This document shows positions 6,515 through 20,235 of a DNA stretch of 20,988 nt, in pieces. The position numbers and the translations under genes are program-made. The notes under the pieces are model-generated. The model was not told the DNA's origin. It saw only the letters and a list, made by a program, of their open reading frames with translations, and did not search any database. The DNA is from a virus. The stretch lies in the IMG/VR virus record IMGVR_UViG_3300031669_000284, positions 1-20,988 of that record. The stretch is one strand, 5' to 3'. How positions within the stretch are numbered: the first letter of the stretch is position 1; every line of letters begins with the position of its first letter.

Positions 6515-7096
6515 TTACTCTTCCCCTTCTTCCCCTTCCCACTGTCCGGGATTGGAAGGCCCATTGCCATCCTCTTGTGCTGATTGATTCCCTGCGTATC
6601 CTTCGATTGCTTCTTGGTAGATGCCATTTTCATTTCTCCGTGTCTCGATTGTTTTAACTACGCCGCTTTGCAGGTACAGCAGACGTTCAGCGAGGCGAGC
6701 CAACCTGTCATTAGTGTCGATGATTTCTTTCGGGATACTACTGCCACTACCAATCCTCTTGGTTGCTTCCATCTGCAACCGTGCTGCCGCTACCCTCTCC
6801 TTCGGACTGCCATTCGCCATCACCTCACTAATTACTTCAACCGATTGCACAAACATCGCGTCCAATTGGAGGCCGGCAGCCTGACACATCTCGGCAATGT
6901 AATCCTTCATCAGGGGTTGTTTGGACAACATGGTGATGTATTCAGGTGTGACGCCGACAACATTAGAAATGGTGCGGCGGTCAATACCTTGCGCCAGCAT
7001 AGCACATACCTGTTTATGCTTCGGCTTCAATTCCTTCATCTGCCAGCCGACAACACCTTCCCCTTCATTGAGGGGTTGCTCAACCATTGCATTCAT
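6515..7096 (-). CDS. terS: Terminase small subunit-like protein
   Basis: 193 residues from the ATG at 7096, chosen because it overlaps the preceding stop as ATGA and has AGGG eight bases upstream; a GTG two codons earlier is possible. Residues about 24-62 (LKPKHKQVCAMLAQG, TISNVVGVTPEYITML) form a helix-turn-helix of the kind used by small terminases to recognise packaging sites. A helical oligomerisation region follows (about 65-150) and an acidic Gly/Glu tail (ends GQWEGEEGEE). The small subunit brings viral DNA to the large subunit. The call is supported by the motif and by its place at the head of the late operon; a different DNA-binding role is possible. Confidence 0.72.
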   Translation of the reverse strand: MNAMVEQPLNEGEGVVGWQMKELKPKHKQVCAMLAQGIDRRTISNVVGVTPEYITMLSKQPLMKDYIAEMCQAAGLQLDAMFVQSVEVISEVMANGSPKERVAAARLQMEATKRIGSGSSIPKEIIDTNDRLARLAERLLYLQSGVVKTIETRRNENGIYQEAIEGYAGNQSAQEDGNGPSNPGQWEGEEGEE

Positions 7097-7266
7097 TTCC
7101 ACTTCCCTACCGGTCGGGCCCTTTTCGCCGTAACCTCTTTGGGAATCTTCACCTGTCTTGTCATAGGCACGGCATGCATCTTTGCGAAACCTTGATTGAT
7201 CTTCGCCTCATGCAACTTCGGTACAGCCATCTTCGCAACCTGGAATCCTTTAAAGACATTACGCAT
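7093..7266 (-). CDS. Small basic protein, 57 aa
   Basis: A 57-residue, strongly basic protein (MRNVFKGFQVAKMAVPKL to KEVTAKRARPVGKWK). The ATG at 7266 has GGAGG nine bases upstream. Its stop overlaps the small terminase start as ATGA, and its start overlaps the end of the acidic 47-aa frame. No family recognised. The charge suggests nucleic acid contact, or an internal head protein; this is a guess. Confidence 0.6.
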   Translation of the reverse strand: MRNVFKGFQVAKMAVPKLHEAKINQGFAKMHAVPMTRQVKIPKEVTAKRARPVGKWK

Positions 7267-8083: not shown

Positions 8084-8386
8084 ATGAACAATACAATTAC
8101 GAAAGCACGTCATAAGATTGCAGACGTTACTTATAAGTCAGTTGTGACAATTGACTGGAGTGATTGCACTGTAGAAGACGTGCAACAGCTCGCTGCGCAA
8201 AAAGTAGTTAATAAGATGCTGACTGAGCACAACAATACTAAAACTCCAATAAAAGAGAGCATGACAATCTATGCACGCGATTACAAACAGGGATTGCGTC
8301 GTGCTGCGCAAACTCCAGAGCAGATTCTTGCAGCGTTGTCAGAAGATCAACTCATTCAGTTGATGAAAGACAGGGGTTTGATGTAA
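8084..8386 (+). CDS. Early protein of 100 aa, paralogue of the 113-aa protein at 14500
   Basis: 100 residues from the ATG selected by CGATTGGAG. Its layout matches the protein at 14500-14841: a short beta-like segment (VVTIDW against IIVSFDV), a helix beginning TVEDVQQLA against TVHELAVAE, then QGLRRAAQTP against PGVRRARTTKTP, then ALSEDQLIQLMKD against ALSGMSAEDLAALLEK. The C-terminal helix motif also ends the Mom-like protein. No enzyme motif is present; small nucleic-acid-binding or regulatory protein is a reasonable guess. Placed between a pair of hairpins and the 9-bp repeat array. Confidence 0.8.
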   Translation: MNNTITKARHKIADVTYKSVVTIDWSDCTVEDVQQLAAQKVVNKMLTEHNNTKTPIKESMTIYARDYKQGLRRAAQTPEQILAALSEDQLIQLMKDRGLM

Positions 8387-8451: not shown

Positions 8452-8492
8452 CTTAATAAAAGGCGTAACAATTTGTTATGGGATTTATTAAG
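8452..8492. repeat. 41-bp interrupted palindrome built around the 15-bp element
   Basis: Outer arms CTTAATAAA (8452-8460) and TTTATTAAG (8484-8492) are perfectly complementary and centred on the same base (8472) as the inner palindrome at 8465-8479. The copy at 10979 keeps part of the same outer arms (ATAAA and TTTAT) at the same distance from its centre. Confidence 0.75.
8465..8479. promoter_or_regulatory. 15-bp palindrome copy 2, GTAACAATTTGTTAT
   Basis: One base from the perfect element (final T instead of C). It lies 24 bases before the first 9-bp iteron, inside the larger palindrome 8452-8492. Confidence 0.72.
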
Positions 8493-8502
8493 ATAATCTG
8501 TG

Positions 8503-8565
8503 AGGTGTTGTATATGTTAGTAGTGTTGTATATGTTGTATATGTTGGAAGTGTTTAGAGTGTTAG
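8503..8565 (+). repeat. Left iteron cluster: seven 9-bp units with TGTT core
   Basis: Units start at 8503, 8512, 8521, 8530, 8539, 8548 and 8557: AGGTGTTGT, ATATGTTAG, TAGTGTTGT, ATATGTTGT, ATATGTTGG, AAGTGTTTA, GAGTGTTAG. Every unit has TGTT at positions 4-7 and there are no gaps between units. Confidence 0.85.
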
Positions 8566-8616
8566 TAAGTGACATATGCTCTTAAAAAAATATTTAAAAA
8601 ACAAGCATGCAGCTTA

Positions 8617-8661
8617 CTAACATCATTAACACTCGCAACACGTGCAACACTTGCAACACTC
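8617..8661 (-). repeat. Right iteron cluster: five 9-bp units in inverse orientation
   Basis: Units at 8617, 8626, 8635, 8644 and 8653: CTAACATCA, TTAACACTC, GCAACACGT, GCAACACTT, GCAACACTC. They are the inverse of the left units and mirror the left cluster exactly around position 8591. The -35 box of the downstream promoter lies inside the last two units. Confidence 0.85.
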
Positions 8662-8678
8662 TGTCACGCTGCTATAAT
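8651..8678 (+). promoter_or_regulatory. Promoter TTGCAA-N16-TATAAT overlapping iterons
   Basis: TTGCAA at 8651-8656 and a perfect TATAAT at 8673-8678, spacer 16. It would start transcripts near 8685 and read the 8753 gene. The -35 box is inside the right iteron cluster, so a protein bound to the iterons should affect it. Confidence 0.65.
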
Positions 8679-8752: not shown

Positions 8753-9232
8753 ATGGCAACAATGAAGGCTGGAATGGTCACGACCGTTCGCATCTCCCCG
8801 AAGGATTGTATATCCATCCTGGACATATTGGACGTGGCGCAGGTGAGGAGGGACAATATGTCCTTCGCCAGTTGTACGTCCCTTGCATTGTCATCCTTGA
8901 TAGGGATGGCCCGACAAGCTGGCATCATCGAGGAGCCAGACGGATTCGCCTTCCTTGATAAGGTTGGCCCGTATAGGGATGGGAAGAATAATAAGGTGAA
9001 ACGCCTTACTTCTAATAGCCTGTATCTAGCAGCCCAGCATGGCTCTGCTGCAATCTCCCTCCCTCGCGTTAATACAAGCATGCCGCCGCAAGTCATGGAG
9101 GAGCAGGCCCTCCGAGAACTTAAGGACAGGTTCACGAAGTTGAATGACCGGAAGGAGGCAGACATTCCCCTCTCAATGGAGGAGGAGAAGGAATGGCAGG
9201 CATGCTTCTCTGTCCTGTATCCGGATGGATAA
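8753..9232 (+). CDS. Possible ribbon-helix-helix DNA-binding protein, 159 aa
   Basis: 159 residues from the ATG at 8753, with AAGG nine bases upstream. The N-terminus has a short strand (about residues 8-14, MVTTVRIS) followed by two helices (ISILDILDVAQVRR and CTSLALSSLIGMARQAG), the strand-helix-helix plan of ribbon-helix-helix (RHH) proteins; RHH proteins such as CopG, omega or ParR bind short tandem repeats. The C-terminal half is helical and charged (LRELKDRFTKLNDR). Its gene is the first downstream of the 9-bp iteron array and its promoter overlaps the array, which is the usual layout of an autoregulated array-binding protein. The RHH assignment is by eye and needs structural confirmation. 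Confidence 0.72.
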   Translation: MATMKAGMVTTVRISPKDCISILDILDVAQVRRDNMSFASCTSLALSSLIGMARQAGIIEEPDGFAFLDKVGPYRDGKNNKVKRLTSNSLYLAAQHGSAAISLPRVNTSMPPQVMEEQALRELKDRFTKLNDRKEADIPLSMEEEKEWQACFSVLYPDG

Positions 9233-9881: not shown

Positions 9882-9970
9882 GCAATGTAAGAAAGAAACC
9901 CAATGACAACAAGCGCAATTCTCTTGCAGCAGTGGAAGCATTGCCGGTTGATGTGGGAGAAGCGGCATGA
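9878..9970 (+). CDS. Microprotein, 30 aa
   Basis: 30 residues (MSNVRKKPNDNKRNSLAAVE to DVGEAA), with AAGAGG upstream and ATGA overlaps at both ends. A basic first half and acidic second half. Function unknown; it may serve mainly to couple translation of its neighbours. Confidence 0.5.
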   Translation: MSNVRKKPNDNKRNSLAAVEALPVDVGEAA

Positions 9971-10458
9971 TCACCACCACGCTAAACCGCATCCGTGCCT
10001 GCGATCCGTGCGCAGAGGGATGGGCGAAACTGCTGGCCGGGCTTGGCAAGACCGAAACCGACGACGAGCCACTTCCCTACGCCAAGATCGTGCGGATCAA
10101 CGGTATTGATGATGCCTTGTGGGCATGTCGCGCAGAGCCACAGCATGCCCGAGAGTGGCGACTGTTTGCAGTCTGGTGCGCTCGGAGGATGCAACACCTG
10201 ATGACTGATCCGCGCTCAATTGCAGCGCTGGATATCGCGGAACGTCATGCGAATGGAACCGCGACGAATGCGGAGTTGGACGCTGCATGGGATGCTGCAG
10301 GGGACGCTGCAATCTACGACGCAGGGAATGTCGCATGGGACGCCGCATGGGATGTCGCATGGGACGCCGCCCAAGCCGTGGCCCGCGCCGTCGCAGGGGA
10401 CGACACATGGGCCGAGCAAACAGCCGAATTTCTGCGCATCGTTGGAGATCCCGCATGA
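9967..10458 (+). CDS. WDAA-repeat protein, 163 aa
   Basis: 163 residues. The first 100 residues are globular (ALWACRAEPQ, WRLFAVWCARRM); residues 105-135 are a run of A-W-D-A tetrapeptides; a short helix (TWAEQTAEFLRIVG) ends it. Proteins of this shape are frequent hypothetical proteins in phages and prophages and have no settled function that I know. The Ala/Trp/Asp repeats likely form a regular helix. The gene is visibly richer in GC than its neighbours, which suggests a recent origin from another phage. ATGA overlaps on both sides. Confidence 0.75.
   Translation: MITTTLNRIRACDPCAEGWAKLLAGLGKTETDDEPLPYAKIVRINGIDDALWACRAEPQHAREWRLFAVWCARRMQHLMTDPRSIAALDIAERHANGTATNAELDAAWDAAGDAAIYDAGNVAWDAAWDVAWDAAQAVARAVAGDDTWAEQTAEFLRIVGDPA
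10279..10371 (+). repeat. 12-bp in-frame repeats encoding AWDA units
   Basis: Variants of GCATGGGAYGYC repeat in frame, giving DAAWDAAGDAA and AWDAAWDVAWDAA. Such near-identical units are prone to slip in copying, so length variation is expected between relatives. Confidence 0.75.
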
Positions 10459-10529: not shown

Positions 10530-10973
10530 ATGAACACTTATGATATAACGAGCTTTCAAGGAACATATAGGTGGCTATCTAATTTCTGGCCAGTAGAGGT
10601 TCAATATAATGGCATTATATGTCCAACAGTTGAACATGCGTATCAAGCTGCCAAAGCGATAAGTTTTGTTAATGCGAGTAATATTGCACGCCAACCGACG
10701 CCAGGAGACGCTAAACGTGCGGGGCGCCGTGTAATTACAAGGACCGATTGGGAAGAGGTGAAAGAAATTATAATGTTGGATTTATTGCGACAGAAGTTCC
10801 AACATCAAAATATGAAAGAAGCATTACTTGCTACAGGTAAATGTAAGCTTATTGAAGGAAATACATGGAATGACCATTATTGGGGGGTTTGCGGTGGTGA
10901 GGGTAAAAATAGATTGGGACTTTTACTTATGCAAGTGCGCGAGGAATTACAAAAAGGTGAGGTAACGAAATAA
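10530..10973 (+). CDS. NADAR-family protein (YbiA/DUF1768)
   Basis: 147 residues, the normal size of the family, with all of its landmarks: GTYRWLSNFWP (11-21), PTVEHAYQAAKA (32-43), GDAKRAGRRV (59-68), QKF-QNMKEALLATG (88-103), LIEGNTWNDHYWGVCG (107-122) and GKNRLGLLLMQVR (125-137). NADAR proteins act on N-glycosidic bonds of ADP-ribose-related compounds. Some remove ADP-ribose from guanine in DNA as the antidote to DarT-type toxins, others work in riboflavin intermediate breakdown. In a phage it may blunt ADP-ribosylation or NAD-based defence; this is inferred. It is AT-richer than the GC-rich gene before it and has only a weak ribosome site. Confidence 0.9.
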   Translation: MNTYDITSFQGTYRWLSNFWPVEVQYNGIICPTVEHAYQAAKAISFVNASNIARQPTPGDAKRAGRRVITRTDWEEVKEIIMLDLLRQKFQHQNMKEALLATGKCKLIEGNTWNDHYWGVCGGEGKNRLGLLLMQVREELQKGEVTK

Positions 10974-15164: not shown

Positions 15165-15467
15165 ATGGGAAAGAAAGTATTTATCCTTGGTGACGGCGGT
15201 TACGATTACAGTGATGCCGAACGGTTCGGCACCCTCGTTCACCTAACCGTACCAACCAATGCAAAGTGGGATATAGCCGCCGTATTCGATGCCCTCAAGG
15301 AGGGGTTAAAAGATGCCGAGCATGATGACTATTTGATTGTATCCCACATGCCCTCCGTAGTAGCCGTAGCGACTGCAATCATGGTTGAGTGGTTCGGCTG
15401 CGTCAACTTTTTGATATATAGGTTCGACAAGTATGAGGAAAAGAACCTCATCCTCGATAACGTGTAA
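15165..15467 (+). CDS. Hypothetical protein, 100 aa, alpha/beta
   Basis: 100 residues from the ATG at 15165. It opens with KKVFILGDGGYDYSDAERFG and continues LVHLTVPTNAKWDIAAVFDAL, DDYLIVSHMPSVVAVATAIM and FGCVNFLIYRFDKYEEKNLI. This alternation of strands and helices with a glycine-rich first loop looks like a small Rossmann-like fold; no catalytic motif is clear. Similar short proteins are found among phage hypotheticals. It follows the structured region and precedes the tRNA by nine bases. Ribosome site is weak (AAGAGAAAAAA), which fits regulation by the leader. Confidence 0.72.
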   Translation: MGKKVFILGDGGYDYSDAERFGTLVHLTVPTNAKWDIAAVFDALKEGLKDAEHDDYLIVSHMPSVVAVATAIMVEWFGCVNFLIYRFDKYEEKNLILDNV

Positions 15468-15476
15468 CAAAAGAAT

Positions 15477-15552
15477 GCGTCCTTAGCTCAGCCGGTAGAG
15501 CATCTGTTTTCCAAACAGAGGGACATTGGTTCAAATCCAATAGGACGCTCCA
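15477..15552 (+). tRNA. tRNA-Gly(UCC)
   Basis: A full 76-base cloverleaf. Acceptor GCGTCCT/AGGACGC, D-arm GCTC/GAGC with AGCCGGTA loop, anticodon stem TCTGT/ACAGA with loop TTTCCAA (anticodon TCC, reads GGA), variable loop GGGAC, T-arm ATTGG/CCAAT with TTCAAAT, discriminator T and encoded CCA. U73 agrees with bacterial tRNA-Gly. It stands in the rightward operon between two protein genes. Confidence 0.95.
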
Positions 15553-15561
15553 TACTATTAA

Positions 15562-15570
15562 CGATCGGAG
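15562..15570 (+). promoter_or_regulatory. Extended ribosome site variant CGATCGGAG
   Basis: Eight bases before the ATG at 15579, directly after the tRNA 3' end. One base differs from CGATTGGAG. Confidence 0.65.
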
Positions 15571-15578
15571 TCACCTCA

Positions 15579-15779
15579 ATGAGTAAAGATCCCTACCGTG
15601 CATACCGCTATGCAGTAACAGCTTTTGGAAATGCCTGCGAAGCCATGACATGGGCACCTGCCTATGGAATATATCACGAGGAATATATCAACCGTAAAAA
15701 GAAGTTTGAATTTGCACGGGTTAAACTGAATCGCACGGTTGAAAAATTAATTGACAAAGCTAGAAAGGGAGAAATTTAA
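15579..15779 (+). CDS. Hypothetical protein, 66 aa
   Basis: 66 residues (MSKDPYRAYRYAVTAFGNAC, HEEYINRKKKFEFARVKLN, ending KLIDKARKGEI). Helical and basic, with a likely coiled-coil-like C-terminal half. Start set by CGATCGGAG. The next gene begins at the base after its stop. No family recognised. Confidence 0.7.
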   Translation: MSKDPYRAYRYAVTAFGNACEAMTWAPAYGIYHEEYINRKKKFEFARVKLNRTVEKLIDKARKGEI

Positions 15780-16007
15780 GTGTCCTTGCTAAAGAAATCC
15801 AAACCCGCGCAAGTAGAGAAATGTAAAAGTCCTGGGATAGTAAGTAAAATTACTGTCAAAAAGTCTTGGGAGATTAATAATTTACGCATATTGGCAGAAG
15901 GAGATTGTGTAACCATTACTAGTAAGGATAATTATCTAGCCGGCTGCACCTTCGACCGTAACATCTGCCCACAACTCGCTGAAATTCTATTGCAGGCCTC
16001 CGTATGA
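15780..16007 (+). CDS. Hypothetical protein, 75 aa, GTG start
   Basis: 75 residues beginning at a GTG immediately after the preceding stop, with AAGGGAG eight bases upstream. It reads SLLKKSKPAQVEKCK, then a beta-rich body (IVSKITVKKSWEINNLRILA, GDCVTITSKDNYLAGCTF) and a short final helix. A small beta-barrel is possible. No family recognised. ATGA overlap with the nuclease gene. Confidence 0.68.
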   Translation: MSLLKKSKPAQVEKCKSPGIVSKITVKKSWEINNLRILAEGDCVTITSKDNYLAGCTFDRNICPQLAEILLQASV

Positions 16008-16972
16008 GTTTCACAAAGCAATCCCGCTACCTTGACAACACAATGATTTCCACCTACAAGGAGTGCCCCCGTAAATACTTAATGCGGCACGTGTTGGGGT
16101 GGACAACCGACAGTGGTGGTCAGAAGGCACCCGCACTCGTCTTCGGCAGTAGTTGGCACGCCGGCATGGATGAGATGTGGGGTGCTGGTAAAGAGTTGAG
16201 CATCGGTGACCGTGTTGACTTGGCGATGGAAGGTTTCCGCAAACAGTGGGAGGAAGATAATTACACCTTCGAGTTATCCATGGAACAACAGGACGACCTC
16301 GGTGCTCGTACCCCTGGCACGGCGCATGAAATGTTCTACTCCTACTCAACGCAACGGGATAGGATGATTCGGGAATGCACCGTCCTCGGTATTGAACAAC
16401 CAATGGCCATGCCCTTCCCAGGTCTTGATGACACCTGGTACGTCGGTAAGCTAGACAAGGTTGTTGATTACAACGGCATCCACGTCCTCGAACATAAGAC
16501 AACCACGTTGTATCGCATCAAAGGTAACTTTGACAATGACTACCTAGAGAGTTGGAATTCTGCCTCACAGGTGAAGGGTTACCAGATGATGGGTAGTATT
16601 CACTACCCGAAATTGCAAGACGTGTGGGTAGATTGTTCCCTCGTCCATAAGAAGGTACATGATGCCTTCAAATTCGTCCCCGTCGCACATGAATGGTCCT
16701 TGCTGCAAGAATGGATCACCGATACGAAAAGGTGGATCGGGGCCATTCAAGACGAGACAACAGAATATGAAAGGTATGGGAATCTGGAGGCAGGTACGTT
16801 CAGAAGGAATGAGGACAACTGCTACGGCAAGTACAGCAAGTGTCCCTTCCTCAATATTTGTAGCACTTGCAGTGACCCCACGAAACTGGGAGAGGTGCCC
16901 GCCGGATATGTTGAGGAGAGGTGGGAACCGTTTGACGTCCTCAAGCTTGATAAATTGATTAAGGGAGTGTGA
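16004..16972 (+). CDS. PD-(D/E)XK nuclease with Fe-S cluster (Cas4/AddB/RecB-like)
   Basis: 322 residues. The core nuclease motifs are H52 in SSWHAGMDE, D151 in VGKLDKVV, E163 and K165 in VLEHKTT, and Q189-Y193 in QVKGY. Four cysteines fit a 4Fe-4S cluster as in Cas4 and AddB: C21 in KECPRKY and, near the C-terminus, C273, C280, C286 (with C289 spare). Such proteins are exonucleases that process DNA ends. Next to a Sak4-like ATPase and an ssDNA-binding protein it probably serves phage recombination and concatemer formation. It could also be involved in DNA repair or act against host DNA. Confidence 0.9.
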   Translation: MSFTKQSRYLDNTMISTYKECPRKYLMRHVLGWTTDSGGQKAPALVFGSSWHAGMDEMWGAGKELSIGDRVDLAMEGFRKQWEEDNYTFELSMEQQDDLGARTPGTAHEMFYSYSTQRDRMIRECTVLGIEQPMAMPFPGLDDTWYVGKLDKVVDYNGIHVLEHKTTTLYRIKGNFDNDYLESWNSASQVKGYQMMGSIHYPKLQDVWVDCSLVHKKVHDAFKFVPVAHEWSLLQEWITDTKRWIGAIQDETTEYERYGNLEAGTFRRNEDNCYGKYSKCPFLNICSTCSDPTKLGEVPAGYVEERWEPFDVLKLDKLIKGV

Positions 16973-19249: not shown

Positions 19250-19444
19250 ATGAAAATCTACCTTTGCTATCTTGACGGTTATTATGATGTGGAGGTTACA
19301 CAGGAGGAATGTGATAGAATATCTGCTAATCATATTAACTTACTGCCTAAGTATAAAGATCATCCTCACACACCTTATAAGAGTGTTGGTTACTCTCCTG
19401 ATATAATTATTATGGATGACCTATGGATGCCTCCACTAACCTAA
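19250..19444 (+). CDS. Hypothetical protein, 64 aa
   Basis: 64 residues (MKIYLCYLDGYYDVEVTQEE, HINLLPKYKDHPH, ending IIIMDDLWMPPLT). Short alpha/beta, several Tyr and Asp. Ribosome site is weak (AAGG eight bases upstream). It overlaps the Mom-like gene by 22 bases, which suggests linked expression. No family recognised. Confidence 0.62.
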   Translation: MKIYLCYLDGYYDVEVTQEECDRISANHINLLPKYKDHPHTPYKSVGYSPDIIIMDDLWMPPLT

Positions 19445-20235
19445 ACACACAAGACTGGTATGTTGCCGACTGTCCTTTATCAGACGCACAGGCCCTTGTG
19501 AAGGAGTTTCATTATGCAAAAGGTGGAAGTACAAGCGCAATCTATACGCATGGGATGTTCCGTAAACAAGACAATTTCCTCATGGGTATTGCTTGGTGGA
19601 CACCCCCTACGAAAGACACCGCTCTCACTGTCAATGCAAGCGATTGGAGGCGGGTCCTCAATCTATCTCGATTGGTTATCCGTCCAGAAGCGCCCCGGAA
19701 TAGTGCATCCTTTCTGCTTGGAAAGAGTATCAAAATCATACGGAGGGATAGGCGCTTTGTATCGCTTGTGACATTTGCCGATGAAGCACAAGGACACAGT
19801 GGTGGAATATACAAAGCAACCAACTGGCTTTACCTGGGCCGAGTTGGCCCCCATGCAAGATGGATCAACCCCAAAACAGAAAGGCAAGTAAGCAACGCCC
19901 ACAAGAATAGTACCATCATGTACGCGATGGGCTATGTTAAAATGAAATCCTTTTACAAACACAAATTCATCTTCCACCTAACAAAAAGTGATGGAGATAA
20001 GAAAGTGTCACAATTAATTGACCTAGTAACACCTATCGAGAATCAATCGGATGAGGAGTTATTGAAACGCCTTGATGAATTGCGAAACAGACGAGAAGTA
20101 GTACGGCCGGCAGCAAAAGCAAGAGTGGTGAAGGAGAAGAAAAAGGTACAGAAGAAGGCCGTAACTGCTGCCGAGAAACTATTAGCAGACCTGACCCCCG
20201 AACAACTTGCCATGCTGCTAGAAGGATTGAAATAA
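19423..20235 (+). CDS. Mom-like DNA modification protein
   Basis: 270 residues. The first 190 match the phage Mu Mom family, a GNAT-like fold that converts adenine in DNA to a carbamoylmethyl-type form, giving resistance to many restriction enzymes. Signs: FHYAKG (29-34), LSRLVIRPEAPRN (81-93), SFLLGKSIKII (96-106), FADEAQGHSGGIYKATNW (118-135). About 75 extra residues follow, Lys/Arg-rich, ending LTPEQLAMLLEGLK, a helix motif also ending the 8084 and 14500 proteins. It overlaps the ParB-methyltransferase gene by TAATG, so the two probably work together. The exact modification cannot be told from sequence. Confidence 0.86.
   Translation: MDASTNLNTQDWYVADCPLSDAQALVKEFHYAKGGSTSAIYTHGMFRKQDNFLMGIAWWTPPTKDTALTVNASDWRRVLNLSRLVIRPEAPRNSASFLLGKSIKIIRRDRRFVSLVTFADEAQGHSGGIYKATNWLYLGRVGPHARWINPKTERQVSNAHKNSTIMYAMGYVKMKSFYKHKFIFHLTKSDGDKKVSQLIDLVTPIENQSDEELLKRLDELRNRREVVRPAAKARVVKEKKKVQKKAVTAAEKLLADLTPEQLAMLLEGLK

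Follow-up and report, generated by a model that had tools for sequence, protein, structure and literature searches.

A mirrored array of 9-bp repeats at the late/early gene junction of a phage genome, a candidate early control site

What might be the function of two facing blocks of short repeats around an A-rich core in an intergenic region of a phage? The question is raised by a 20,988-nt stretch of virus DNA (record IMGVR_UViG_3300031669_000284; hereafter, the window), for which a preliminary description had proposed a partition, replication-initiation or autoregulatory system, possibly a new one. We compared this locus with those of related phage contigs. The explanation that we favour, with slightly better than even confidence, is that the array is an early control site where dimers of a probable ribbon-helix-helix (RHH) protein, the product of the adjoining gene 8753, would coat both arms, fold the region around the core and repress their own promoter.

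The array and its surroundings in the window

The array is made of 9-bp units that hold the same 4-mer in phase and without register slip, TGTT in the seven units of the left arm (starting at 8506, 8515, 8524, 8533, 8542, 8551 and 8560) and AACA in the five inverted units of the right arm (8619, 8628, 8637, 8646 and 8655). The preliminary description had reported this arrangement together with an exact mirror of the five inner pairs about position 8591 (e.g., 8560 + 8622 = 2 × 8591), the A7 and A6 tracts of the core and a TTGCAA-N16-TATAAT promoter over the outer right units, all of which we confirmed; the extent of the array, given as 8503–8661, had to be amended, as the last right unit reaches 8663. 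These runs of seven and five are the longest fixed-period 4-mer runs anywhere in the window, as compared with 2–3 in 300 first-order Markov surrogates of the region. With one of them inverted, the two arms are 75% similar over 48 nt and, beyond the TGTT core of the units, not identical. In stability, the A-rich core between them falls in the lowest 0.2% of window stretches.

Table 1 Features of the array region and candidate binder genes in the window.
Feature	Coordinates	Strand	Basis and remarks
Probable TerS gene, considered as alternative array binder	6515–7102	−	Tentative, from HTH-like sequence; adjoins TerL
ORF of 100 aa directly upstream of the array	8084–8386	+	Conserved; no family match
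Terminator-like palindrome	8452–8492	+	Inverted repeat GTAAC-AATTT-GTTAT (8465–8479), then GGGATTTATT
Left arm: seven units TGTTNNNNN of 9 bp, oriented towards the core	8506–8568	+	Sequence; 6 or 7 units in close relatives
Core with A7 (8584–8590) and A6 (8596–8601)	8569–8618		No strand; 55 bp kept in relatives
Right arm: five inverted units of 9 bp (AACANNNNN on the + strand)	8619–8663	−	Sequence
Sigma70-type early promoter, TTGCAA-16-TATAAT with TG before the −10	8651–8678	+	−35 inside outermost right units
Gene 8753, the first early gene; its 159-aa product is probably an RHH DNA-binding protein and a candidate binder of the array	8753–9232	+	Neighbour conservation, AF2

The promoter outscores 99% of equal-sized stretches (p = 0.003) and the next gene is 8753, so that the candidate operator overlaps the promoter of its putative repressor. 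On the other side, the palindrome, if it is indeed a terminator, would insulate the array from the upstream gene; it was not among the calls of a rule-based terminator scan of the window. Because of this terminator-like palindrome to its left and the strong promoter that has its −35 box in the outermost right units, we regard the array as a control site acting at the DNA level.

Conservation and divergence of the layout among related phages

Four close relatives (L007, L008, L009 and L010), whose 8753 proteins are 97–99% identical, share the array. The numbers of left/right units (7/5 in the window; 6/8, 7/5, 7/7 and 6/7 in the relatives, respectively) and the distances from the core to the −35 box (about +56, +57, +75, +75 and +85 in the five loci) differ, and the 55 bp from the innermost TGTT to the innermost AACA are kept in all five with hardly any sequence alteration. 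Whole 9-bp units come and go inside the arms while the outermost right units remain tied to the promoter, so that the apparent target of selection is the unit with its phase and not the core-promoter distance. The independent variation of the two arms also bears on whether they might pair as an RNA hairpin within a transcript. Their complementarity (75% over 48 nt) would allow for it, but the arms differ independently in unit number, and the array lies upstream of the promoter and behind the terminator-like palindrome; we hold this function to be extremely improbable. Rfam matches were far below the gathering scores, and the RNA-level reading was rejected.

Among 46 related records, the exact TGTT-N5 pattern, which is blind to relatives with other motifs, was found only in the two closest. 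In the 44.6-kb genome G003 (locus L077), whose 8753 homologue is 60% identical, mirrored arms with a TGTG word surround an A-rich core at the same place. The TGTG motif also occurs in L143, in TGTGANNN units with 8-bp steps. L018 and L102 have TGTA arms and an inner TGTCGGTATAG unit in common, with 8-bp steps in L018, and L024 and L030 have TGTT/GTTN arms with a mixed spacing of 8, 9 and 11 that is largely repeated in mirror. The motif of L017 is ambiguous (TGTG six times, TGTA five times), and L025 and L056 possess a gene of the 8753 family and lack clear arms. The expectation that relatives would keep both phase and core was borne out by the close ones. In the distant ones, the mirror layout and the A-rich core persist but motif and period vary, which makes the strict 9-bp phase with TGTT a subclade feature.

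In an unbiased mirror scan (left 107 bp against the reverse complement of the right 107 bp at every fourth position, skipping the central 36 bp), the highest-scoring centre fell on the late/early junction in about 25 related contigs. Almost all of these centres have an A-rich core, and most reach z values of 6–18 within their own locus. Because the composition of the arms is skewed, we added shuffles under a dinucleotide model, which yielded mirror z values of 5.7 for the window, 6.6 for L077, 9.1 for L024, 5.9 for L018 and 5.0 for L030. The scan was weak or failed in L017, L019, L025 and L056, where the A-tract core is still there, and in loci falling short of the junction. In L143, the top score in the locus (44) was elsewhere and the array corresponded to a lower-scoring centre near the gene (37).

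The related loci fall into clades A and B. Read towards the core, both arms of clade A are for the most part rich in G+T. The right-side promoter was detected at p ≤ 0.1 in 13 of the 15 loci of this clade and a leftward one at that level in a single locus; in L018 and L030 the right-side promoter lies further out (+165 and +176 from the core). Equivalent AATT-centred palindromes stand left of the array in L077, L019, L024, L025, L030 and L056. A homologue of gene 8753 occurs downstream of the array in 10 of 10 clade-A loci, and also in L143, and a homologue of the 100-aa ORF upstream of it in nine of 10; this ORF had no match in PHROGs and none above the cut-off in Pfam. Second copies of its family were seen downstream in L024, L025 and L030, and an unrelated-looking 131-aa ORF holds its position in clade B (13/13 loci).

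The arms of clade B are mostly A+C- or C+T-rich, and the 8753 family was not found there. The first early genes of this clade encode small proteins with HTH-like segments, with Pfam HTH matches below the cut-off. CAAC-rich arms (at least two CAAC in one arm) were present in five of the seven loci that have only the second HTH type and in none of the six with the first type, a post hoc comparison that fits a site changing together with its protein.

A candidate binding protein and its possible mode of action

Searches with the 8753 protein against Pfam, PHROGs, NCBIfam and PDB sequences gave no match supporting an RHH fold, and those against phage and plasmid records nothing credible. Likewise, the L018 homologue had no match in phage records, and single-protein scans with the L017 and L030 homologues retrieved self-matches only. 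The AF2 model of the N-terminal 60 residues (mean pLDDT 81) shows residues 8–14 extended, with no strand called in the monomer, and helices at 16–28 and 38–55, which corresponds to the short N-terminal strand and two helices of RHH proteins. Foldseek comparisons of this model were led by TCP domains (probability up to 0.69, about 2.5 Å over 49 residues) and also listed TraM, CdbA and Arc, with E values of 0.7–3.2 (best 0.73), none of them significant; the full-length model (pTM 0.46) gave no useful fold match. The predicted topology, together with an invariant Arg13, suggests that 8753 is probably an RHH protein.

Anchored on Arg13, residue 11 falls on what we take to be the Arc-type DNA-contact position. 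This residue is T or S in loci with TGTT (window, L024 and L030), Q in those with TGTA (L018, L102 and L019) and H in those with TGTG (L077 and L143), and it is the sole separator of the three motif classes among the first 50 columns with few residue types. For L143, residue 11 was read before the TGTG motif had been detected. Under free relabelling, 14 of 560 label sets yielded some predictive column. When two sister pairs were tied, 10 of 40 did so, and the correspondence between this putative contact residue and the array motif is therefore suggestive only; the relabelling covered neither L017 (Q11, motif ambiguous) nor L025 and L056 (arms unclear). That one position appears to sort TGTT, TGTA and TGTG arrays is directly testable; where a DNA-binding protein and its multi-copy site have co-diverged in nature, the way in which recognition changes can be tested.

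The probable TerS, which had no PHROGs match, was considered as another binder, in which case the array might be a packaging start (pac) or TerS-binding site. Its gene is 1.4 kb from the array, and some pac sites contain A-tracts and repeats. However, TerS is 84% identical between the window and L077, with one change in the HTH region, though the motif shifts from TGTT to TGTG; moreover, the array lies over the early promoter and its occurrence follows that of the 8753 gene. A packaging function appears very unlikely. As array binder TerS is itself unlikely, site specificity not following it between the window and L077.

For an early control site bound by 8753, we infer the following mode of action. 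At the junction of leftward late genes and rightward early genes, 8753 dimers would bind the TGTT units, one dimer per 9-bp unit, and two dimer filaments would face one another across the flexible A-tract core. Occupied outer right units would cover the −35 box and switch the early promoter off, and the first early gene would thereby limit its own operon. No detectable promoter overlaps the left arm, which would serve a symmetric complex through folding or bridging across the core. Of all this, the layout, its conservation, the promoter overlap and the linkage to the gene are seen in the sequences, and the RHH fold, binding, repression and bridging are inferences. Negative autoregulation is the simplest reading, since a protein sitting on the outer right units would occlude the −35 box, and, of the functions put forward in the preliminary description, it is the best supported one, by the promoter overlap, the adjoining gene and the predicted RHH-like fold. 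Besides the lack of a significant sequence or fold match, the outcome with sister pairs tied and the ambiguous or unclear arms of L017, L025 and L056, two further observations count against our favoured explanation: the 8753 homologue is not always the first early gene (in several relatives it is the second or a later one, 550–1100 bp from the core), and the left arm is conserved. Since simple promoter repression needs no conserved left arm, the latter calls for more, either a symmetric nucleoprotein fold or origin activity.

Other possible functions and comparison with known systems

As a replication origin, the facing arms would bind a phage initiator (8753 or another), the A-rich core would melt and the replisome would load, a function that may coexist with that of operator. 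We consider it possible, if rather doubtful, because in stability the core ranks near the bottom for these records: in 30-bp windows it was among the least stable DNA of every locus tested, and in L024, L030 and L102 no other place was less stable. Among the G003 genes are those for a family A DNA polymerase, an exonuclease/UDG fusion and a DUF3987 protein. On the other hand, the core-promoter distance differs by up to 29 bp among close relatives, no initiator family was recognised among the proteins scanned, and we know of no RHH replication initiators. In G003, the cumulative GC skew has a turning point near the junction, but skew turns wherever gene direction does; as gene direction turns at the same place, the skew carries no separate information and was unused as evidence. 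The array iterons adjoin an easily melted A+T-rich stretch as in the classical origin layout, exemplified by ori-lambda, where repeated sites for the initiator, the O protein, lie beside such a stretch (PMC5043065). The ori-lambda iterons, however, measure 19 bp and lie inside the initiator gene, with the A+T-rich stretch on one side and without enclosing facing arms. A family-wide, fast-rewriting early/late switch that doubles as replication origin would unite both functions: facing filaments of fixed geometry would assemble on an A-tract core, and the DNA word and the binding module (of RHH type in one clade and of HTH type in the second) would be exchanged while the mirror layout is kept. 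As a whole, this broader proposal seems unlikely to us.

Partition would imply a plasmid-type centromere (parC-like) segregating the phage as a plasmid prophage, and the position of the array upstream of the 8753 operon fits a partition cassette with 8753 as candidate binder. The parC iterons of plasmid R1 are direct repeats, not facing ones. In other respects this type II partition system (ParR-parC) is similar, with short iterons arranged in tandem as two clusters, each iteron bound by an RHH dimer, the intervening region looped out and the promoter repressed (PMC5016525); its promoter lies between the clusters and not, as here, at the outer end of one arm. ParA-type ATPases (PF13614) were absent from all 20 records searched, with controls detected; a ParM search gave no match anywhere, controls included, and was hence uninformative. 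Since an integrase was found in only one of 20 related records, the tailed phage, of which the window is a 21-kb fragment, is probably virulent. Facing arms, 8–9 bp steps, a motor protein not found and a probably virulent phage set the array apart from ParR-parC, and we see a centromere as highly improbable; this part of the preliminary proposal is not upheld.

RHH proteins such as omega (pSM19035), with its heptads, Arc and MetJ read short operators in the major groove through their beta-strand. AmrZ reads its short site in this way too (PMC3325190). As compared with these operators, the array has mirrored arms around an A-tract core, a 9-bp or 8-bp period and a clade-diversified motif, and RHH membership of 8753 is predicted. 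In the p4/p6 switch of phi29, an early protein binds inverted A-tract sites at early/late promoters, over the −35 boxes, and folds ~120 bp into a hairpin (PMC3100819). The facing sites with A-tracts overlapping a −35 box at the early/late region are alike, but p4 uses an N-hook instead of an RHH strand, its sites are four and not tandem iterons, and it activates a late promoter, whereas none was found at the array.

The idea that 9-bp facing blocks define a new system holds in part. Taken singly, the ingredients of the array are familiar (RHH operators in tandem, facing sites that flank A-tracts, early genes under autoregulation), whereas we found no description in the open-access literature of a conserved facing-arm site with changing words. 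Cultured relatives are distant, with the closest TerL matches in phage records at 38% and 35%, and a near-DNA search of phage records gave no match. In this phage group, of which hardly any members are in culture, the conserved mirror layout appears to mark the control centre and perhaps the origin.

Several other features were observed in these genomes. In the window, a 12-bp tandem repeat (GGACGCCGCATG, 10278–10370) inside the ORF at 9967–10458 encodes WDAAWDVAWDAA-type protein repeats, and further genes encode a NADAR-domain protein (10530–10973; Pfam PF08719, 2.5e-27) and a Mom-family DNA modification protein (19423–20235; Pfam PF25680, 1.2e-30), the latter 90% identical in G003. L077 encodes a single protein with ParB_N and N6_N4 DNA methylase domains (15314–16642). 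Finally, L143, a window-like phage contig of 44,519 bp, was binned in the Pseudomonadota MAG REEB109, which gives a weak hint at the host phylum.
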